Assembly (NCBI GenBank): GCA_021904315.1
Contig: CM038918.1
Coordinates: 16,817,349-16,881,348 of the forward strand
Direction: 5' to 3'
DNA from: Sphagnum magellanicum
Lineage: Eukaryota > Streptophyta > Sphagnopsida > Sphagnales > Sphagnaceae
DNA length: 64,000 nt
Of this stretch, positions 29,723 to 63,131 are shown piece after piece (within the stretch, counting starts at the first letter, position 1; every line of letters begins with the position of its first letter). Under the pieces are notes generated by a model that was not told the origin of the DNA, did not search any database, and saw only the letters and a list, made by a program, of their open reading frames with translations. The position numbers and the translations under genes are program-made.

Positions 29723-30205
29723 TAGTCATGGTCTCAATTAATATGCATGATTCAAAAATGGTGATTCATTAAAAAAATTTGGCTTCAATTAATGTGCATG
29801 ATTCAAAAATGGTGATTCATTAAAAAAATTTGGCTTCAATTAATGTGCATGATTCAAAAATGATGATTCATTAAAAAAATTTGACTTCAATTAATGTGCA
29901 TGATTCAAAAATGATGGCACAAATTAATATGCATGATACAAAGATGATGATTCATTAAAAAAATGATAACACAAATTAATGTGCATAATTCAAAGATGAT
30001 GATTCATTAAAAAAATCATGATTCAAATTAATGTGCATCATTCAAGTATGGTGATTCACTAAAAAAATCATGGCACAAATTAATGTGCATCATTCAAGTA
30101 TGGTGATTCACTAAAAAAATCATGGCACAAATTAATGTGCACCATTAAATATGGTGATTCACTAAAAAAATCATGGCACACAAATTAATGTGCATATTGA
30201 ATGAC
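29723..30205. repeat. minisatellite of about 50-bp units
   Basis: About nine head-to-tail copies of a unit reading AATTAATGTGCATGATTCAA, then a(G/A)ATG(G/A)TGATTCA(T/C)TAAAAAAAT and a variable TTTGGCTTC or CATGGCACA end. The left copies share the TTTGGCTTC end and the right copies share CATGGCACA, so the array has two subfamilies and appears to have grown in blocks. Confidence 0.85.
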
Positions 30206-33200: not shown

Positions 33201-35121
33201 ACATTGTTCTTAGTTGTGTTTCAGTTGTGGTTGACAACATTGATCACACAAGCAAGTTCAAACTTTAGACTTGTATGTTTCTGTGAGAAGATCTAACAAA
33301 CATGGAGCTCTTAATTTGAGAGTCCTGGCTATCTTGAGGTCTACTTAACAACTAATGAGACCAGACCTACTTCCATCTCTGGTCTCAGTCTCTGGGTGAA
33401 CCATTAAGAATTTTCTGTCTCTCTTGCATTGTGCAGATGAGCTTTTCTGAAATGTGCCCCAATTTCCAAACTGTAAAATGCAGATCCCTCCCAGGCATCA
33501 TTTGTGTGTAATCACACCCCTTTTATTTTCCAGTGTCTCTCTTAAGCTTGAAGCTGTTGTTTGCATGTTCCCAGATATCGTCACTCTGCATGGCTTTCTC
33601 AGGCCCTTTGGACAATCTCAAACCCAAACTGAGTAGCTAGTGAGGACATGTGTGAGATTAAGAACACAAATCTCATCTCTGATTTGCTCAGGAAGACAGA
33701 AAATGTGTAACCCATTGAATCCTGGTTCAATCAAAAGCCTACTAATGTGTCCACCAAATAATCCTACACAGTCTAACAACAAAAGCAAAAACTAGCTCAC
33801 TTGAACTATAAGACATGACCAACCTGTGTGAATTCCTGCATGTGGAAATGGCCCAGTACCAAGGATTCTACCATACCTCTTCTGCAGTTTTTGATGTGAA
33901 ACTCTCAGCAAATCATCATTCTATCAGCTAAATTGGTGCGATAACACAGCAACAGATAATGACTTCTGTTCAAGAGACGCATCTTCCTTTTACTCAAAAG
34001 AGAAGAAACGCTCTTAGTAACCATCTGCATTCTCACCATCTCATTTTTTCTTCTTTTGAAATCCTTCTCTGTGAACAGCTCCTTCATGTCATTGAGTCAA
34101 CCTTGCCATCACATGCATACTCTACAATATATTACCATTCAAAACAAGTCTTAATGTCACAATTCATAAAGCCTAAAAATTCAAGCACCCTTTCTTTGAG
34201 AAAAATTTGCAAGTCTACATTGATCCAACAAAGGATATGATTTCTTGAAATGCGGTGAACATTTTAAGGCCATTTTCTGAGGATTATTTCCCAAAATTTT
34301 GGGAGTTTTACCCCTTTTGCTGCTCTGTAATTTGTGGGAATAATGTCTGTTTATAAAGGTTTAGTTTACACTGAATCCATCATGAGTTGTGGCTTCGCTT
34401 GTTGGCTCAAATCATCTTAAAGACCCTTTTCTTGTTTGTTTGTATTCTCTACTTGTGAGTGAGGTGGTGAAAGGAGCTTTAGCAAAGTTCTATGTCATTT
34501 ATGCATTGCAGAGAACTCTCTAATTGCTTGAACATTTTGTATGACCAGTACTAGTATATGCACTCATTGCTCAAGCTGAGAAGAAAAAAGCAACATGGTC
34601 TGAACAATTTTACAATTGCAAACACAAGATTTTAGCAAGCTCTTGCTTTAGAAGTCATATACTTCCTTTATTTATCTCAAAGTGCGGTTACATATTCCGA
34701 CAGGCCTGGATTTCTAAGTCAGAGAGATTCTGCACTTAAAAGCTATGAACATCTTCATGAGAGACTTTGGACAAGACAGACATAGCCCTTGAGCTCATAA
34801 TGCAAACATTTGGCTGTCTACACAATGAAACTCATTTGGGGTTTTATGTACAATGACAGACATCACAGACCTAACACAAGCCATGAAGAAATCCCTCATT
34901 ATTTCAGGATGTGAGATTTTCTCCACAAAATAGTATATTCTCATCTTTAGACCAGATCACATTTTGTTCAAAAATACCGCACAAGGATCCTCTACACTCA
35001 CAGACACACTGTGCAACACATGTGTCTCAAAACCCCTGGAGATCATGCACTTCACATTCAGGGATCATGTGAAGCATTTATACAGAACTTGGGTACTAGT
35101 AGTTCCTGTCAATCTCTAACC
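30206..35121. other. gene-free region upstream of the ferritin-like gene's 3' end
   Basis: No supported coding exon. A 67-bp direct duplication lies at 32841-32964 (GTGGGATTTGAGATA...GCCATTCAAT...TTTGCCAAAGAGCATG). The right part, about 34.05-35.06 kb, is the presumed 3' flank of the ferritin-like gene and is the parent of an inverted, degraded copy at about 48.6-49.68 kb. The open frame at 32218-32655 shows no domain. Confidence 0.45.
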
Positions 35122-37387
35122 CTAAGTCACCCTGTTCAAAGTGCGGCGGGCAAGAAGATCATCACAAGGATCCTTTGGTTCACACTCAAACTTCTTGGTC
35201 TCACGACATTCGGCACGGAGCTTCGATCCAATCATCAGCCTAGCACACAACAAAGAGAACAAAATTGTTATTACAAACCCTATCTCCCGAAGGTCCCAAC
35301 AAACAAAAGGCTATTTCTGAAGCTCTCTGGGGTTTCAAACAAACTACATGCATAGCTTGATCATATCATATGGCTGGTGACATAAAATTTGTGAACTCCT
35401 TTCTGCCATGGATGGCTCACCTGGTTTGAATGGCTGCTTCAGTACCAGCAGCAAATGCTAACTCCTCAACTTCAAAAGGCAGGCGTCGATCAAATGTCTT
35501 GATTGCATGAGGATCCTTTTCTGCAGTTCTTAGGTAGGCCACATAGTGGCTTGCACATCGCAGCTTCTCATCCTGTATTCACAAGGTTCAACAAAAATGT
35601 ACAGCTCTGACAAGAATCAAGAGTCTCAATGTTGCAACCAGATACTTGAATGTCAATATTGCAATTATTAGAGTTACAAATCTCCTTAAATATTTTGGGA
35701 AAATGCATGATTTGAATATGAAATCATCTGATTCTTTGGAACAAGAAAAGCACTGCAGGAAACAAGAGTCATGATCATCAAATTTCATGTTGTAAATTAT
35801 CAACAAGAGCTGCTCACCATCTGCTGGATGCATTTCTGGAGGAAGACTATAGCCTGCACATCATTCACTCTTCGAGCAAGTGCCATTGTCTCTGCACTTT
35901 TCTTGGCTGCCACCTGCAGTTGAACATCGTGAAACCTTAAATTTCCAACTCCTCTACATAAAATTTTCCTGGAGATTCTCTCATTGCTGATAGTAGGACG
36001 ATTTTAGTTTTGAGAGAACAGAAACAGGATATAGGAGACCACAGAAAACGTCAGATTGCTAGCAGGCAGCATCACGAAGTTGAATTCCTGATGGTATTTG
36101 CAAGTTCCAGATCTGATTTTACCTTGTACAAGGCTAAGTTCTTGGAAAATGCTGTTGTCACCTCAGAGAATTCCTGATGCGACGTAACCCAATCTGAAGG
36201 AGGCGCAGCAACGGGACCAAATTGAACAACTGCCCCTCGCTTAGCCAAGAAGTCAATGACAAGCCATGAATCATTGATCTCACATTGTGCAAGAACCTGT
36301 TATAAGAAGAAGAAGAAGTTCAGAATCTGAAAGAAGAAAAAACACACAACGCATGTGCACATGGTGAATTCACCATATTGAATTGTACAAAATTTTCCAA
36401 TCAACATTCAAGTTGTCAAACCCAAGACTGAAAATTATGTCAACCAATGTTTTTAGATCCATGATGCATGATCTCGCAAGAAATTGCAGGATTGAACAGA
36501 GATTTTCTTTTAAGAAAAACATCTGCATGCATACATGCATGCATTGTTTCAGAGGTAACTGCAGCTTGACCTTGAAGTAGAAAGCCACGCCGGGGAGTGC
36601 AACATTGTCTCGAGCAAAAAAAGCAGAGGTGGACGTGAAAAGGGCTGCTGCAGTTTGATGAAAACTGTGCAGTACAAACAACAAACCACAGATGCAAGCA
36701 TCCCAAGCTTAAAACAAGAGTAGGAAATCATCACAGATCCTTCTACAGCTGGTCTGACATTACCCATTATGAGATCCAAAGACTCGATCGACACAAGATT
36801 CAAGAAGAAGTGCACAGAGCTCTAGCTTGACTGCCAAAATGATATTTTCTTGAGTTCCTGTGAATTCTTCTTGCAGAAGAATCGAAAGTCTAATTATCTC
36901 TGTTTTGACAATGATTCTGAGCTTGATCAATAGTATAGCCAAGAAACAGAAATCCAATTTTAGTTCAGAAACTGCATATTACGTGATGCATTTGTTGAAG
37001 TTCTCGTCCACCTCGGAGTTGGCGGTCTGGACACGCCCCAGAGGACGTCTCATATCGCCAGGCTTCCATTTAGCGATCGTCTCCATTTCTTGCTTGATCT
37101 GCAACACATTTTTACACGTACGATATAATTATTCCCGTTCCAATAATTTCTCACAACGTCGGAAGAATCGGTACTACTGATCGATCGGCAATTAGCAGGC
37201 TCAAGAACAGAATCTCTTCATGATGAATTTGAAACCCATTTGGTTGCCTGCTGGGAACTAGTTAGACTGGAACTACAACAGCGGCGAGAATCACTACTTT
37301 GGCTTGCATTCTTCATATGTTTGAGAGAATGGGTCACATCATCACCTCCTCAATGCAGGGGCATTTCTCCATGTGCTGCGCTGCCAT
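35122..37387 (-). CDS. divergent ferritin-like protein with degenerate ferroxidase centre
   Basis: Seven exons on the minus strand, all in phase: 37387-37346, 37098-36983, 36664-36571, 36296-36123, 35913-35818, 35572-35421 and 35239-35122, giving 263 residues. Ferritin hallmarks: RDNVALPG...FYFK (about 71-84) matches plant RDNVALKG..KFFK, AKRGA follows at the NKRGG position, and NDVQ and HYVAYLR match the third and fourth helices. EEIKQEM near residue 13 matches the plant extension peptide. By hand alignment the ferroxidase ligands (human H-chain numbers) become E27 to H55, Y34 to F62, E61 to C89 and H65 to D93; E107 and Q141 also appear lost, and only E62 (E90) remains. A 38-residue tail with three cysteines (exon 7) extends past normal ferritin. 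No transit peptide is visible from the first in-frame ATG. It may be structural, regulatory or non-iron-oxidising; function is unknown. Confidence 0.75.
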
Positions 37388-38300
37388 TGTTGCTGCTCTT
37401 GAGATCGTAAGTACTGGTACTTTCCGTAACTGCTGTGAGCGAGGAAGCGAGCGAGAGAGTTCACAGAAATCTCTGCAGGCAGCCGCCAGATCCACGATTA
37501 ATGATACAATTCAAATGAAGACTACTGACTAGTGCCGACGGATCGAGTGTTACAGTTTGCAGTTCGAAGCTCACCTGGCTAGCTACGGAGCTGGAGACGA
37601 TCAAGAAACGAGATGAAGCAGCTGGTACTGATATGTGCAGGAAAGCTCAAGCTGGAAATAAAACCCAAGGCAATAAACTGCTGCAAGAACACAAAAAAGC
37701 CAAGGCCGTATCACTCACTGCTTTAATTCAAAACTCTCACGATCACACCAAAAGCCGCCAGGCGCAATTTATACAAGAAAGTACCGGGAGCTTGACCATC
37801 AGACTCAGCTACTTGATCACTGAGGTGGCGAGCAAGAGCAGTGGGCATGAACGTGATCACTCTACTGCACGCGGGATCAGTATGTACTCGGCGGCAGAAA
37901 TGGATGATTTCAGTTTGCATGTCCAAGTCGTTGACATAGCTAAAAGTTGATATACTTGCACACCCACCACCAGGTGGCTTCCCCCGGATCATTACGTAAC
38001 GCTGCATGCATGCGTGCATGCAAGCATGCAAAAGACATTCACAAGTTGTGGATCCCCGTAAGTGGCGGCTCGATGCTGCATGAAGTCTAGTACTAGACGA
38101 TGATGCAGATCCTGATCCTCCTGCTGCTGCTGCTGTAACTAGAGAAACAGCATTCTTGCACATGATCATGAAGCAGCTGGAACTCTAGAGAAACAGCATT
38201 CTTGCACATGATCATGAAGCAGCTGGAACTCTAGTAGCAAGCAATCCCACGATCCATCTCAACTCAGTTCAGTCTACTCATACTGCATGATCGATCCGGG
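37388..38300. promoter_or_regulatory. upstream region of the ferritin-like gene
   Basis: 5' flank of the minus-strand ferritin-like gene. It holds a GCATGCATGCATGC-type palindromic tract near 38002-38030 and a near-perfect 46-bp tandem duplication at 38139-38230 (CTAGAGAAACAGCATTCTTG, then CACATGATCATGAAGCAGC). An open frame on the minus strand (38169-37723, 148 codons) spans low-complexity GCTGCT and GCATGC tracts; it may be a real short protein or leader but shows no domain. Confidence 0.45.
38139..38230. repeat. 46-bp tandem duplication
   Basis: Two essentially identical head-to-tail copies start with CTAGAGAAACAGCATTCTTG at 38139 and 38185. The near identity suggests a recent event. It lies about 0.75 kb upstream of the ferritin-like start codon. 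Confidence 0.9.
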
Positions 38301-46753: not shown

Positions 46754-48223
46754 GAGGAGGTGAAGCAAGGTCATCAACACCAGCTTGTGAAGGAGAAACT
46801 CAGTGACACTTGAATCCAGAAGCATGTGAGGATGATGCTGAATGATGCCCATAACTGCTCACCTCCTGAGACTCAAATCTTACAAATGTCTTGCTAGGCA
46901 AAGCTCAACTCACCATTGTAGCTCTGTCAATCTTGATGACATACCTGAAGGTAAGAACACCTTCTGTAATAATGTTTTCCTTGAAGCAAAGATCAAGTAT
47001 GCATACCTGGTGATGCACCTGTAGCTCACAAAAGAGACATGCTTGGATTCTTGCCAGTGTGGATGTGCTCTGCCAAGTCTTGCATCTCTCTTCTGTGGTT
47101 TATGAGTTGCTTGTGAACATTGAATATGGAGAGCACTTGCGGGATTGCAAATTGGAGTACCATATAATTACCGAACTCTTGGGCACACACTGAGAGTGCT
47201 TACAGCTAGATCACAATAGGAAGATTTGACTTGACACATGATATGTTTAGATGTAGTTCTGATTAATTCAGAAGGTAGCCAACAAGGTTCTTTGTTTGTC
47301 AGACAGCTTAAGAGAAAGCAAGCTTGTAACATGATGTTGTTGCCCCTCAGACAACAGATCATTGCCAATGGCAAAATATACTGAGCCCTCCTAGCAGAGA
47401 AGCTCTACAGGACATGGCACCATTGTTGTTGACAGCAACCATGAGAAAGAAGACTGTGAAAGTATTCCTCTGTGGCAAAATGTATGGTCTGGCACAAAAC
47501 TCCGAAATGGTATCATGAATGAGGATGAACATCAAAGCACTGTGAATCTTTTAAATGCCCAGATGTAACACAGGCTCATCTTTTTGCTTGTGGAACTGGA
47601 GGAGTTGCTGAAACTTCCAGCAGTGAGGGCATCCTCACTATGACAACTTCTGGAGGTGTTTCATCATCTTCTGGAAGTCCAAGCAACCCATTTCTCTGCA
47701 ATTTTGAAAACTCAAGGAATGAAAGCTGCCAGAGAGCAATGACCAAGTGTTGTTTGTCCTTCAGTGATGCTAAATCTTCTGGGTTTAACCTGCTGATCTC
47801 TTTCTTGAATATGGTCATTGAGAACCATGCTTACTGCATCATTGGTGTCCTCTGGAGTAGGGAAATTTCCACCATCTCCTTGGGTCAGAGCAATCTCTAG
47901 GAGATTGCAAAGGGCAGCTTATTGACCATCAGCATCAGGATTGCTTGCAAAAGCTGATTAGTGAGCTGTGGATATCAGCCGTCCTGTGTCTGATTGAACC
48001 TGCAAATTGGAGCCTTAATCTATTTTCCTACAATCACTCCACATAAGAAACCAACAGCCAGAGCTCCACAGGTTTTGGGAAACTGAGCTTTGTGTGTTCA
48101 TGGGTTGTTGCTCCAGCATTGCAGTAACCTAAAATCCCAAGAAGCCAGAAAACTTAGTTTGCATTTCTGGGTGACATTGTGTGAAATTGGAATTTGGGAT
48201 TCATGTAGTAAATTGTGTTGCAG
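46754..48223. other. region with a possible gene fragment
   Basis: No confident gene. On the minus strand 47818-47576 encodes FKKEISRLNPEDLASLKDKQ, then HLVIALWQLSFLEF and LPEDDETPPEVVIV, with protein-like composition and a stop. The preceding minus-strand stretch reads LTQGDGGNFPTPEDTNDA in another frame. This could be two exons of an unidentified gene or a frameshifted remnant. Confidence 0.3.
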
Positions 48224-49680
48224 ATCAAGCAAGAAATGGAGGTCATGGCTAAATGGAAGCCTGGCAATGTGAGACATCCTCTGGGATGCATCCAGACTGC
48301 CAACTCTGAGGTGGACAACAACTTCAACAAATGCATCACATAATATGCAGTTTCTGTACTAAATTTGGATTTCAGATTCTCAGGTACACTATTGATCAAG
48401 ATCTGATCCATTCTCAAAACAGAGATTCTTTCAATGTCTTCTGCAAGACTTGAACTCAGATGTCATTTTTGCAGTTAAGCTGGAACTGCTTGACCTTGAA
48501 GTAGAAAGCTGGGCCGGGGAGTGCAACATTCTATAAAGTGAAAAAAGCAGAGGTGGACATTAAAAGGGCTGCTGTAGTTTGATGTGTTTAGGGTTAGAGA
48601 AGGGTAATGCTTCACATTATCCGTGAATGTGAAGTTGAGATGGATCTCCAGGGGTTTTGAGACACATGTTGTTGCTAGTGTGCTGAGAGTGTAGATGATC
48701 CTTGTGTGGTAGTTTTGAACAAAATGTGATCTGGTCTAAAGATGAGAATTCCAGAAAATCTGACATCCTGAAATGGGTCTTCAAAGCTTGTGTCTAGGTC
48801 TGTGATGTCTGTCATTGTCCATAAAACCCCCATGAGTTTTCATTGTGCAGACAGTCAATGTTTGCATCATGAGCTCGAGGGCTATATGTTTTGTCCAAAG
48901 TCTCTCATGAAGATGTACATAGCTTTAAATGCAGAATCTCTCTGACAAAATCCAGACCTGTCAGAATATGTAACCGCACTTCAAGATAATTAAAGGAAGC
49001 ATATTACTTTTAAAAGCAAGGTGCTAGAATCTTGTGTTTGCAATTGTAGAATTATTCATACAATATTGCTGTTTTCTTCTGAGCTTGAGCAATGAGTGCA
49101 TAGTACGTACTAGTATTGGTCATACAAAATGTTTAAGCAATTAGAGCTTTGCAATGCATAAATGGCATAGAACTTTGCTAAACCTTTGATCATGTCAAAG
49201 AAAAAGAGTTTTTCCTTTAACAAGAAAAGGATGATTTGAACCCAACTCAAATTGAACTCAGTGTGAACTAAACCCTTATAAGCAGACATTACTCCTATAG
49301 TGATGTAGAGCTCTTCCAAAGTATAGAGCAGCAAAGGGTGCAAAAGTCCTAAAATTTTGTTAAAGTTACAGCCTCAGAAAATGTCTTGAAGATGTTCACC
49401 ACATTTCATGAAATGATATCCTTGGTTGCACTCATGTCTTGCAAATTTGTCTCAAAGAAAAGCTCCTTGATTTTGCACACGTTTATGAATTGTGACATTA
49501 TGACAATTTGGATGCAATGATATTGTAGAGTCTGCATGTGATGGCAAGGGGGTGTGAGCACAGAAGAAGACTTTGTTTCGTGATGGTGCTCAGGTCACAA
49601 CAGGTCCTGGATTTAGTAAAGGGATTCTATGATGACTATATGACATGAAGGAGCTGTTCACAGAGAAGGAATTCAAAGCA
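48224..49680 (+). pseudogene. broken, rearranged copy of the ferritin-like locus
   Basis: 48224-48339 matches exon 2 of the ferritin-like gene at 35122-37387 with exactly the same length (116 bp), on the opposite strand, including the TTGTGTTGCAG acceptor. Its donor GT is AT and the reading runs into a stop. About 48340-48465 follows intron 2. 48486-48584 matches exon 3 but in the reverse direction; read on its coding strand it has a TAG where the parent has the RD codons. About 48600-49680 is the reverse complement of the parent's 3' flank (about 34.05-35.06 kb), with an extra stretch of about 100 bp near 49547-49645. Exons 1 and 4-7 are absent. It cannot make a ferritin-like protein. Confidence 0.8.
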
Positions 49681-51058: not shown

Positions 51059-53827
51059 TCACAGTTTTAACGGACCTGCATCTGCAGTCATAGATGCCAC
51101 CGTGTCGACAGGATGTGCACTGAAGCTGGTGGCTTTCGCATAGAAATCGGCATTGGTAGAGCTGGCTCCTGAGATGGTGAAATAAGCACCATTCAAGAAC
51201 AAGTCACCTGATGATCTCCAATTCCAATTGTCTGTGGTTCCAACATCACCTCCATCATCTTCAATTCGCTTAGTAATCTGCAGTTGTAGGACAATTTCTT
51301 AAGTGTTGGAATGAAAAAAAGAGAGCATACATGTGTGTGGAAGAAACTTTACACTATCCACTGAGTACTCTTTACAGCAGTGCTAGAACCTCTTGTGACA
51401 ACAAGAATCTGCAGAGTGTAATTTACCTCCTTAGCAAATTGAGTATTGGGAGCAAGGTAACGATTTCCTTCACTGTTGATTGTGGGAGCTTCACTCCCCC
51501 CCACTGCATACATCCCCCATGATGTGTAGTCGTTGTTTACAATATGGAAGTTGCCATGCCGGCATCTGCAGCACAGCAAGACATTTTTAGGAGAGAAGGA
51601 TCTCTGTAACAAAAGAATGTGCAGTCATACCTGGCGAATTCTGGGGTTTGAACACAATGTAGATCAACATTGAGACAGCCACAGAAGGACATGGTCTTAT
51701 GGGTGATGTGAAGCAGCCAACCTTGGCATGTTCTTCAGGAGACCAGGTCCAAAATGGTTGAAGGCAACTGTGACATGCATATCCTGCTCGATAATGTCAG
51801 ATGCACGGCCACCAAGCAGCATCACCTGCAATCATGGCAATTCGAATCGAATACTTCAAAGCTCTACTACACAGAGAGATTGCAGATTGACTTCTTAGCA
51901 CCGAGGGTGAGCCCAGGGGATGACAGAACATTGTGCGATGATCAACTGTAGCCATGGATTAATAGTATCTGAATGGCAAGGACTCAATGCCAAATTAGCC
52001 GCAACATAAGGTCAAGAACGTGCTCATCATCCAGCACAGAGAAGAAGAACCGCATCAGGCACAAACAGGGAAAGACAAGGATCAAAACAAAACCCTCAAA
52101 GCTTAAGGTTGAGATCTACACCTCGTCTTGCTTGGTGAAGTAGTTGTTGGAAATGGTGATATCAGTAGAACCCATAACCACATCAACGAGGCTATCCGCA
52201 CAAGTGGAGAAGAAGCAGTGGTCCACCCAGATGTCGTAGGAGCCAAATATCGACACTGCGGTACCAGTGTGCGGTCCTCTTTGCCCGTAATGCGTGGGAG
52301 AGCTTCTGATCACCGCAGGTCCGGAACGATTGCAGTGGTGGATGTGCACGCCATGAATGATGATGTTATGCACATTCAGCACAGTCAGGCAAGCACCGCC
52401 GGCGATATGGACGTTGTGGCCTCTACCATCGATGGTCTTGTAACTGTTGATCATGAGCTCCTGTTTGAGCGAGATCATCATGCTGCGAGAGAAGACGATC
52501 CAGAGCGGCTCTTCCTGCAGAACGCCGTAACGTAATGTGCCTGGAATGGGATTGATGGCATCATTGTCGTTCTCATCGGTGACCACATAGATATGTCCAT
52601 TCTTGCCACCGATGGCGTTTGCGCCGAAACCGACGGCACAGTCTGCCAGGTTCTTGCGGTTCTGTTCCCAGTGCAAATCACATCTCCAGCAGTCGTCGAT
52701 AGGATTGCCAGATTCGCAACTGCCGGCGAGAAGTCTTCTTGTGAAACTGTTGCTGATTACCAGACTTGCCTGCACTCTTCAATATCGACCACGCACATTA
52801 GAAACAGTCAATACAGCTTCATGAAAACTCTATAATACTGTAATCAACTATACGTGCAGAGCATTTGTAATCCATGTTGTAGCGGCCACGGTCGATAGGC
52901 GAACAATCGCTCTAGAATCGCTGGCGCATGATCACAGTGCAAGAGGATTCGTATCAAACAAACATAAGAGTACAGATCTCGAGCATATTTGCTCGTAGAA
53001 TGCAAGGGTTTTTGCAGAAAGAAGTCGTGAAAGAAACATCTTCTCACAAACGACAGACTCTAGAGAAGCAGATAGCAATCAACAATCGCTCTAGAATCGC
53101 TCGCACATAATCACAGTGCAAGATCACTCGTATCCAATCAGCAAAAGAGTACAGATCTCAAGCACAACGCTGCTAGAATGCAAGCGTTTTGCAGAAAGAA
53201 GTCGTGAAAGAAACTTCTCACAAACGGGACTGTAGAGCAGCAGATCGTAATGACTAGCGCAAATTGTTCCAAAATTCCTGGCCATAATATCGCGGCCGGC
53301 CTTTCAAAAGAACGGTATGCGAGTACGCGCGGGTGCTATACCCCTGTCAACAATGCTCTAGACAATGCTCCAACAAACACACGCACATTTAAGATTCGGC
53401 ACATGCTGCAAAACAGCAGCTTATTCTTTCTTGCAATTTGATGCAACTGTAACAACAATTTGCTGCAGGCATCCCACAACAATGCAGTCATGTTCTCTCC
53501 TTTCAATCGCAACAAGTACTTCGCGAAGACTTCACATTAGTGCTCATGAAAAGCAGACTAGAAAAACCTCATGAAGCCCAGTACAACGTCCAGTGCCGCA
53601 GCTGCTATAACTCTAGTTACACTACCGACTGAGGTGCCATACCTGTTATGCAACTTCTCCGCATCGGAAACAGACAAAGTCGTCGTCACAGCTCGCGGGG
53701 CATTCACTGAACGTGCTGCTGTCACATTCACGCTCGCCGCACCATGAGACACCGACACGCGTGCAGCAGATTCACTTAGACTCACCGCTCCACAAAAGTC
53801 TACAGAAAGAAGAAACACCAGGGCCAT
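51059..53827 (-). CDS. pectate lyase (polysaccharide lyase family 1)
   Basis: Secreted calcium-dependent enzyme that cleaves de-esterified pectin by beta-elimination in the cell wall. Five exons on the minus strand: 53827-53643, 52776-52122, 51825-51722, 51565-51427 and 51277-51059, in phase, giving 433 residues. The chosen ATG gives a signal peptide ([14 protein letters not shown]); an open frame continues upstream to 54019 but lacks a better start. [10 protein letters not shown] (about 86) begins the lyase domain, with [22 protein letters not shown], and [17 protein letters not shown] (about 244-260), which carries calcium-site aspartates. MPRCRHG (about 313) holds the catalytic arginine region, followed by [15 protein letters not shown] and SEGNRYLAP. 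All key motifs are intact. The exon 1/2 junction was chosen by phase (AACAG|GTATGG to TTGAAG|AGTGCAG) and is the least certain. Intron 1 holds a tandem duplication (52907-53251). Confidence 0.9.
52907..53251. repeat. ~175-bp tandem duplication in pectate lyase intron 1
   Basis: Two direct copies lie at 52907-53080 and about 53084-53251. Each begins CAATCGCTCTAGAATCGCT and includes AATCACAGTGCAAGA or GATCACAGTGCAAGA, AAGAGTACAGATCTC and GCAGAAAGAAGTCGTGAAAG. The copies have several substitutions and small indels, so the duplication is not very recent. Confidence 0.85.
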
Positions 53828-54325: not shown

Positions 54326-54915
54326 AACCGGCCCAGGTTACTTGAATAGTCAAGGCCTGTGAGTGTCCATTATCCATACTATTCATGATAACTTGTGCAC
54401 TCTTGCTGGCTACTGGACATAATGGAATGTATGACATGGTCGAACCGGCCCAGGTTACTTGAATGGTCAAGGCCTGTGAGTGTCCATTATCCATACCATT
54501 CATGATAACTTGTGCACTCTTGCTGGCTACTGGACATAATGGAATGTATGACATGGTCGAGCGTACACATATTATGAGACACATATAACAGTGTGAAGTT
54601 ATGACATTCAGTCGCCCGAACAATCAGGAACTCTCTCCCTGGTTACCGGACATGATCAATTGTATGGCAGGCGTCAAGCTTACGGGTTGTGGGACACATA
54701 ATAGTGTGAAGTTATGAGGTTCAGTCGACCAACAATGGAGAACTCTCTCTGATTTTTAGACATAATCAATTGCATGACATCGTCATGGTTATGGGACCCA
54801 TAACAGTATGAAGTTACATGGACATTATCGATTGTATGACAACGTCAAGCTTACGAGTCATGAGCCACAGAACAATGTCAAGTTACGAGGTTTCAGCCCA
54901 TCGATGGCCAAGAAC
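54326..54915. repeat. satellite-like block: 117-bp tandem pair followed by degenerate units
   Basis: Copies at 54326-54442 and 54443-54559 are nearly identical and share AACCGGCCCAGGTTACTTGA, AAGGCCTGTGAGTGTCCATT and GACATAATGGAATGTATGAC. From 54560 to 54915 three or four diverged units of about 90-110 bp follow, built on GACAT.ATC.ATTG.ATGAC, GTCAAGCTTACG and CATAACAGTGTGAAGTTATG. It lies about 0.5 kb upstream of the pectate lyase start. Confidence 0.8.
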
Positions 54916-61150: not shown

Positions 61151-62392
61151 TCCAAACTTGAATTGCTTTGAATATGGCCCTTTTGGTTTTCCATAGCTAA
61201 ACAACCTAGCCTAAGCTTCCCAAGAGACCTAGCCTTATTTGATTCGCCTTTGACTACCGTATGGTACGACGCTATTGGGCCAAAAAAGTTTCTTATTTCT
61301 TGGTGCCATGTGGCACATTGGATGTGTTTCCATGACTATCCATTACAACTACAAGCATAAGGGGTGCAATTGCAAATGACATTTATGACTATACCACATA
61401 TATGTTTCATGGTAAATATGACATAAATGTTTGGATTACATAATCATGTAGTTATGTCGAGTCATATATGGTGGTTAGGATTACAATGCCAATCATTTTT
61501 CTAGTCTTTTTTTATCATCTTTTGGTGTGTTGTTAGTCCATGCAATCGACATTCTTACCATTAAGGAGTTTTTTTAAATAACATTTTTTTTAACCCACAA
61601 GATTATTTCTTGGGTTAAGAAATCTAGGCAACCAATGACATTTATAAAGTTATTTTTGAAAGCCTCATGACAAGGTGCATTGAGGATTCTTCTTTAGTTG
61701 CATGGGTAAGCTTGGAGTTCCAATTGAACTTATTAATATAACTAAAATTTTGTTTGTGGGAGCCTCATCTAGCATCATGGCTAATGGGAACGTCACAAGG
61801 GAGTTTGCAATTGAATAAAAGGTCCCTCAAAGGTGACCACTAGCCCCTTATTTATCTTTTCTTGTGGGACATGCACTTAACTAAATAAGTGCCATAATCA
61901 TTTTTTGAAAATAATGCATTCATTATCAATAATGGATTTTTGAAGTTCAAAAATATGGACTAGTCAATTGTTTAGATTGTTAAGAAATTTTTAAATTTAT
62001 ATTGAATTCAATTTCAAATTGTCTATAGTGACTAAAAATGGGTTGAAAAATGAAATCATAAACTTAATTGTAAATTGTTTTTTTGTGAAACCCTAACCAA
62101 ATGATAGTTATGAACTTTTGAAGGGTTCAAATTACACCTTATTTTCAAAAGTCCTTTTGAAATGATTTTTTTTGTTTGAAATATCCAAATGGGGTTTTAT
62201 TTTTATGAACATTATTTGTTTTTCTTTTAGGATTTCCAAAGTGGTTTCATCATACCAATTGACAACATTTTTCAATATGGGTTGTGACCTAGTTTTAAAA
62301 GGTTTCATAAATGAATGAAACTTTAATAGTCAAAGATTACACTAATGAAATCTTAAAATTTAAAACCATATCCATATAGATTATTTATAAAG
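61151..62392. other. gene-free AT-rich stretch
   Basis: No coding feature and no clear repeat structure was seen. Confidence 0.4.
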
Positions 62393-62545
62393 CTTGCTAA
62401 GTAATCTAAGGAATGTTATATCTATCTAAAATGAACCATTAAACTTGCTAGGCATTCTAGGGAATGTTATATCTACCTAAAATGAACCATTAAACTTGCT
62501 AGGCATTCTAGGGAATGTTGTATCTACCTAAAATGAGCCACTATA
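62393..62545. repeat. 51-bp tandem repeat, three copies
   Basis: Copies at about 62393-62443, 62444-62494 and 62495-62545 share CTTGCTAGGCATTCTAGGGA, ATGTTATATCTACCTAAAATG and AACCATT. To the right, up to about 63000, short degenerate phrases of the type GCTACCTAAGG and GGCTATGTAA recur without fixed period. Confidence 0.8.
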
Positions 62546-63131
62546 CTATGCATACACCTTTGTAAGTTCTATAGGCTACTTAAAGGCTATGTAAACTACC
62601 TAAAGGGTGATGTAAACTACCCTAAGGGTTGTTGTAAGTTACCTTAAGGGCTATCTAGGTTACATAAGTCCCTACTTAGGGTACATAAGCTACCTAAGGT
62701 GTACCTAGGGAGAACATAAGGTTATATAAAGTTTATATAGCTACTTAAGGTCAACATAACTTTAATTACTTAAAGACCATGTAAAATACTTAGGGTGTAC
62801 ATAGGGGTTACATAATTTACATAAGGCTTACCTCAAGGCTATGAAAGATACTTAAAGACTATGTAAGCTACCTAAGGCTACCTAAAAACTATGTAGGCTA
62901 CCTAGATTACCCAAGGTGTAATGAGGGGCAACATAGCCTACCCATCATCTATTTAGGAACAACAATATAGGTCTACCTAGGGTTTAATTACCTATTTACT
63001 TACGACATAACTAGTTATAGATTTACTTATGTACATACCTACTTATTCACAACAAACCTATTTACCTACCTCTTAATCCCACTTTCTACAACCTATCTAA
63101 CAATGACATCAAAACAAACCTATCTATATAT

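Follow-up and report, generated by a model that had tools for sequence, protein, structure and literature searches.

A ferritin-fold gene of Sphagnum magellanicum without most of the usual iron-oxidizing residues belongs to a conserved family of the green lineage

The stretch of DNA analysed here (the window: 64,000 nucleotides of the peat moss Sphagnum magellanicum, contig CM038918.1) carries a gene whose product is predicted to have the ferritin fold and keeps one of the seven ferroxidase residues. We tentatively regard it, with a little less than even confidence, as one of the two intact copies found in Sphagnum from a conserved family that derives from green ferritins and no longer handles iron as ferritin does, the protein being a ferritin-shaped scaffold or binding protein and not an iron store. 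Among the readings weighed below, such an iron-inert scaffold or binding protein is the likeliest; its main rivals are a protein with a single-metal site and a subunit that partners ordinary ferritin.

The gene lies on the minus strand and runs from 37387 down to 35122. Its seven exons are separated by six introns, all of them GT-AG, and encode 263 codons followed by a stop (Table 1). An earlier note on this DNA, made from the letters alone, had given the same coordinates. In the frame that is open at position 37387, the ATG there gives the first Met. Eleven residues precede a helix that resembles the extension peptide of plant ferritins, and the open frame contains no Met further upstream, so that the gene model has no room for a plastid transit peptide; an upstream coding exon beyond the model could still exist.

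The ferritin fold was confirmed by profile and by predicted structure. PF00210 (Pfam Ferritin) matches the protein with E = 4.1e-9 and 36.9 bits (cut-off 24.5) and is the sole Pfam family to match at E <= 10; an NCBIfam scan returned a single match, at E 0.01 and far under its cut-off. The five top-scoring solved structures, at E 2.4e-13 to 1.7e-12, come from plant or green-algal ferritins or are chains labelled as ferritin. The predicted structure superposes on soybean ferritin and contains the four-helix bundle and a short helix E. It was built from the 17-row alignment described below and replaced a weak earlier model (predicted local distance difference test score, pLDDT, 66.4), for which Foldseek ranked Ulva and soybean ferritin first. 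The extension-peptide helix is also present: the phmmer alignment to soybean ferritin 3a68 starts at residue 12, and a helix is predicted for residues 12–23. A chance alignment was rejected as the source of the ferritin likeness, given the profile match above its cut-off and the ratio of non-synonymous to synonymous rates (dN/dS) reported below.

Ligand positions were read from a MAFFT alignment with soybean, Setaria and Ulva ferritins. The retained ferroxidase residue is E62 (Glu90). E27 is replaced by His55, Y34 by Phe62, E61 by Cys89, H65 by Asp93, E107 by Tyr141 and Q141 by Met174. The earlier note had proposed the fold, had named the first four replacements and the kept E62, and had suspected losses at E107 and Q141 with less certainty; all of this stands. 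At positions 57, 60, 61 and 64, the cavity-face nucleation carboxylates of the animal-type L chain, the protein has Val, Gln, Cys and Asn and thus lacks these acids. The three-fold channel is likewise non-acidic, with Val165 at D131 and Gln168 at E134.

These losses are a property of a family. Three protein searches gave 31 proteins, of which 16 full-length or long ones were aligned with the window protein (alignment A3, 17 rows): one from Sphagnum jensenii, the S. magellanicum paralogue, two from Asterochloris, four from Myrmecia bisecta, one from Trebouxia and seven from other contigs. Omitted were 14 read-through or short fragments (P0010–P0017, P0025, P0026, P0028–P0031) and P0027, a ferritin with all seven ferroxidase residues that served as outgroup. 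All 17 rows match PF00210 at E <= 1. The S. jensenii protein, named 'Ferritin' in UniRef, is 97% identical to the window protein; it and the S. magellanicum paralogue show the same ligand losses, and the 15 further relatives beside the two S. magellanicum copies group with these and share nearly all losses. E27 is retained in none of 16 readable rows, and Y34, E61, H65 and E107 are each retained in none of 17. Q141 survives in one row (P0019) and E62 in 16, and Asp occupies position 65 in 15. Columns 57, 60, 61, 64 and 67 of the cavity face, acidic in soybean and Setaria, are acidic in no family row, and E134 is missing from every one. At position 144, which contributes to iron site 2 in certain animal ferritins, 15 of 16 readable family rows have Lys and one has Arg; neither residue occurs there in five ordinary ferritin rows.

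A phylogeny with plant ferritins, which the earlier note had called for, sets the family apart from the ordinary ferritins tested: its rows lie on one side of a branch with support 100/97, and two soybean ferritins, Setaria, Ulva and P0027 lie on the other. Forcing the seven named algal rows into one clade gave an approximately unbiased P value (p-AU) of 0.048 with all rows in; once the ordinary ferritins are left out, the tree separates Sphagnum cleanly from the named algae. The trees are compatible both with gene transfer and with vertical inheritance followed by losses. No other moss appeared among the named matches of the three protein searches, the moss content of the database being unchecked. 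Such searches detect only relatives sharing short exact words and missed the ordinary plant ferritins, which are true relatives, so that the lack of matches in other mosses and plants is no more than a hint. None of the pattern-matching stretches in viral contigs (16) or in GTDB prokaryote genomes (13) was confirmed by tblastn, and 20 stretches of 10 kb beside the window held no family member. In nine of ten read-through fragments the exon parts are better kept than the intron parts; the exception is P0012 (exon 52% versus intron 56%, with a second overlapping alignment of 27.5% identity counted), and we do not use this result as support.

The second S. magellanicum copy, on contig C9 of the same genome, is intact, and its exons yield the protein P0002 (CY35_09G005400) letter for letter. 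Over 261 codons compared with the window gene, 181 residues are identical. Estimates of dN and dS were 0.228 and 1.179 by NG86, 0.211 and 1.112 by LWL85, and 0.221 and 1.327 by YN00, which places dN/dS between the two intact Sphagnum copies at ~0.17–0.19, only approximately because dS is high; the gene is thus under purifying selection. By segment (NG86), dN is lowest at residues 195–228 (0.115), followed by 42–104 (0.145); the tail, 229–263, is laxer, with dN 0.212 against dS 0.633 and a ratio near 0.34. The earlier note had judged the frame maintained and not decayed, a view upheld by the seven open exons, the intact paralogue and this ratio. The dN/dS check that it proposed thus came out far from 1, albeit with paralogues and not with the orthologues it had in mind.

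Intron positions point to the origin of the gene. Intron 1 is missing from the C9 paralogue, whose five introns coincide in position with introns 2–6 of the window gene. Exon by exon, four soybean-like ferritin loci were found in the same genome, on contigs C2 (two places), C5 and C8. The ferritin on C5 has an intron that splits soybean codon 37 in phase 2, the place and phase of window intron 2, and that on C8 has one after soybean codon 157 in phase 0, the place and phase of window intron 5. Two introns held in common with canonical ferritins of the same genome, in both place and phase, show that the gene descends from green-lineage ferritin. Intron 3 lies two codons from a C5 ferritin intron and was not counted as shared. 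Intron 4 has no partner among the splice sites read, which cover parts of two of the four ferritin genes, and the C5 introns at soybean codon 115 and between codons 134 and 135 have no partner in the window gene. Judged from protein readings, the environmental fragment P0025 carries an intron-like insert where intron 5 would fall, and its own ends agree with introns 4 and 6; P0029–P0031, which are close to Asterochloris P0024, begin at a point that agrees with intron 4 and continue without a break across the site of intron 5. The environmental relative P0006 resembles a spliced mRNA, its frame passing through the site of the insert in its close relative P0025. A PF00210 profile search of the 439-Mb S. 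magellanicum genome itself gave no match, a limit of the method, because protein searches found both the family and ordinary ferritin exons there.

Within the family, helix E (195–208) has the largest share of any segment of columns at least 90% identical (8 of 14); by mean entropy the AB loop is slightly better kept (0.51 versus 0.59). The following stretch, 210–228, lies past the end of the ordinary rows and has 4 of 19 such columns at a mean entropy of 1.12; helix B has 9 of 28 and 1.07. Residues conserved in the family and absent from, or beyond, the ordinary rows include Lys136, Lys177, His183, Lys199, Arg204, Glu210, Glu219, Arg225 and Arg233, among others. Compared with ordinary ferritins, about 55 extra residues follow helix E. 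A simple volume calculation assigns ~176 of the 268 cubic nm in an 8-nm cavity to the last 55 residues in 24 copies; the usual cage with helix E inward, if formed, would therefore leave little room for mineral.

From these data we propose the following picture. In place of the di-iron site there would be a buried ion pair that joins Glu90 (position 62) to Lys177 (position 144), as suggested by the Lys or Arg at position 144 in all readable family rows and in none of the ordinary ones. This pair would prop the four-helix bundle, much as Lys62-Glu107 does in animal L chains. The protein probably stays in the cytosol, given the short N-terminus and the lack of an upstream Met in the open frame, and would form a stable oligomer or shell. 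Its working part may be the C-terminal module from helix E on (195–228), which would either fill the cavity or present a binding surface. A more far-reaching version, possible but held with less confidence, is that the family is an ancient separate branch of green-lineage ferritins that gave up iron before peat moss and trebouxialean algae split, or passed between them by gene transfer; it would have become a cytosolic, iron-free shell of ferritin shape with a function of its own and a new C-terminal working module that largely fills the cavity.

Green-lineage ferritins (soybean SFER4, 3a68; Ulva, 3vnx) share with the window protein the profile, the fold, the extension-peptide-like N-terminal helix and an RDNVALPG-type AB loop, as well as the two introns described above for ferritins of the same genome. 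The window protein differs from them in lacking the ferroxidase ligands except E62, Glu134, the five cavity-face acids and, in the gene model, the transit peptide, and in its longer C-terminus. The animal ferritin L chain has also lost the ferroxidase site, which an acid-base pair may replace. That pair is Lys62-Glu107 in the centre of the bundle (PMC11396501), whereas in the window protein it would join positions 62 and 144, with Glu at 62. The L chain moreover has the nucleation carboxylates lacking here, and scores lower than plant ferritins.

Several observations weigh against an iron-inert scaffold with a C-terminal working part. By its share of conserved columns, the stretch 210–228 is no better kept than helices B or C, and in the extension after helix E the model's confidence is low (blocks of 38–62 from residue 221). 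The evidence for selection comes from paralogues whose dS exceeds 1 and is partly saturated. Position 131 is acidic in 3 of 17 family rows. The outgroup P0027 keeps all seven ferroxidase residues and yet is non-acidic at 57, 60, 64, 67, 131 and 134, so that loss of the channel and cavity acids alone is no proof that iron storage has ended. Finally, Glu90 and Asp93, with His55 in Sphagnum, could hold one metal ion.

The earlier note had suggested a structural subunit, a metal sensor or a task unrelated to iron as possible roles, and all three are still candidates. On the possible metal ion rests an unlikely rival, in which the protein is a single-metal sensor or a new enzyme with one ion held by His55, Glu90 and Asp93 (positions 27, 62 and 65). 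Nine rows have the trio together (three Sphagnum, P0003–P0007 and P0020), and the Glu at 62 and the Asp at 65 are nearly constant; but just nine of the 16 readable rows have His at position 27, and the Lys or Arg at 144 would disfavour a metal. Alternatively, the protein might be a non-catalytic subunit that co-assembles with ordinary Sphagnum ferritins, in the way L chains join H chains in animals, and modulates how they handle iron. The predicted fold with its extension-peptide-like helix and the four soybean-like ferritin loci would suit such a partner, and animals are known to have ferritin subunits that lack a ferroxidase centre (PMC8961696 and PMC11396501). We nevertheless consider it unlikely: the five sampled cavity-face columns are non-acidic and Glu134 is lacking in all 17 rows, the ~55 residues after helix E are additional, and helices C, D and E carry family-kept residues that ordinary rows do not have. 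Plant ferritins are plastid proteins, and a protein without a transit peptide in its gene model may not meet them.

The named holders of the family, peat moss and trebouxialean algae, dry out, which raises the idea of a stress or desiccation protectant unrelated to metal. Desiccation-related proteins of another family with a ferritin-like label, PF13668, are expanded in lichen algae (PMC9434271). This is a separate Pfam family, matched by none of the 17 rows at E <= 1; membership in it was rejected, and the link to desiccation is by habitat only. As no other moss is among the named matches, with the moss content of the database unchecked, we think this explanation quite improbable. A ferritin has also been reported from the Trebouxia A48 secretome, and one Trebouxia ferritin is raised in lichen thalli (PMC12712428); the passages on it give neither sequence nor Pfam number, and the protein may or may not belong to the family described here. 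A pseudogene or an error of the gene model is very improbable and was rejected. Decayed gene pieces do occur nearby and on other contigs, but the frame is open through seven exons, the paralogue shares five intron positions and its protein has been recorded, the S. jensenii counterpart is nearly identical, and dN/dS is low. The decayed exon 2 nearby makes a contrast: it has lost its splice donor and differs from the window gene in 11 codons, eight with a residue change and three silent; the changes may have arisen in either copy.

This decayed exon lies in a 1.2-kb stretch that has copies 89–91% identical on contigs C18, C6, C16 and C3, within larger shared sequence; those copies share further flanks lacking in the window copy. 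The stretch looks like a dispersed repeat that captured pieces of a decayed duplicate at the window locus. Adjoining it is a diverged copy of the 3' flank of the gene, in opposite orientation to the one beside the gene; the duplicated flank is a trace of an old locus duplication. An open frame with a sub-threshold pectate lyase match and four tandem arrays (units of ~46–117 bases) were also recorded in the window.

Table 1. Coordinates of the ferritin-fold gene and of other features in the window
Feature	Position	Strand	Length (bases)	Details
Exon 1	37346..37387	-	42	ATG and residues 1–14; extension-peptide-like helix begins at residue 12
Exon 2	36983..37098	-	116	Rest of extension-peptide-like helix, linker, start of helix A; ends in codon 53, phase 2
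Exon 3	36571..36664	-	94	Most of helix A, AB loop, start of helix B; His55 (E27), Phe62 (Y34), RDNVALPG
Exon 4	36123..36296	-	174	Rest of helix B, BC loop, first part of helix C; Cys89 (E61), Glu90 (E62), Asn92 (E64), Asp93 (H65), Tyr141 (E107)
Exon 5	35818..35913	-	96	End of helix C, start of helix D; Gln168 (E134, three-fold channel), Met174 (Q141); ends between codons 174 and 175, phase 0
Exon 6	35421..35572	-	152	Rest of helix D, helix E (195–208), most of next helix; Lys177 (position 144), His183
Exon 7	35122..35239	-	118	C-terminal extension and stop codon
3' flank of the gene	34055..35078			Counterpart of the diverged copy below
1.2-kb stretch with decayed gene pieces	47393..48609	+		Exon 2 has AT in place of the donor GT; exon 3 is disrupted and in reverse orientation
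Diverged copy of 3' flank	48606..49677	+		78% over main block; adjoins decayed pieces
Open frame	52119..52778	-		Pfam pectate lyase, 21.3 bits (threshold 24)
Tandem array	29734..30195
Tandem array	38139..38234
Tandem array	54326..54596
Tandem array	62388..62547

Searches of open-licence papers gave no description of a green-lineage family that lacks the ferroxidase site, the cavity-face acids and Glu134 together; the earlier note, too, knew of no described plant family with its pattern of ligand losses. Ferritin is a widespread and well-kept iron protein, and its fold seems here to have been reused for another job. If this is right, a plant and algal branch under purifying selection despite the joint loss of the oxidation site, Glu134 and the sampled cavity acids would show that the ferritin fold is valuable without iron storage. 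Some members bear the database names 'Ferritin' or 'ferritin heavy chain', and gene counts and expression studies that treat them as iron stores may therefore mislead. Sphagnum is the dominant plant of peatlands, and some of the named algae live as partners in lichens, so an extra gene shared by them would be relevant to the biology of iron, of drying and of acid bogs.
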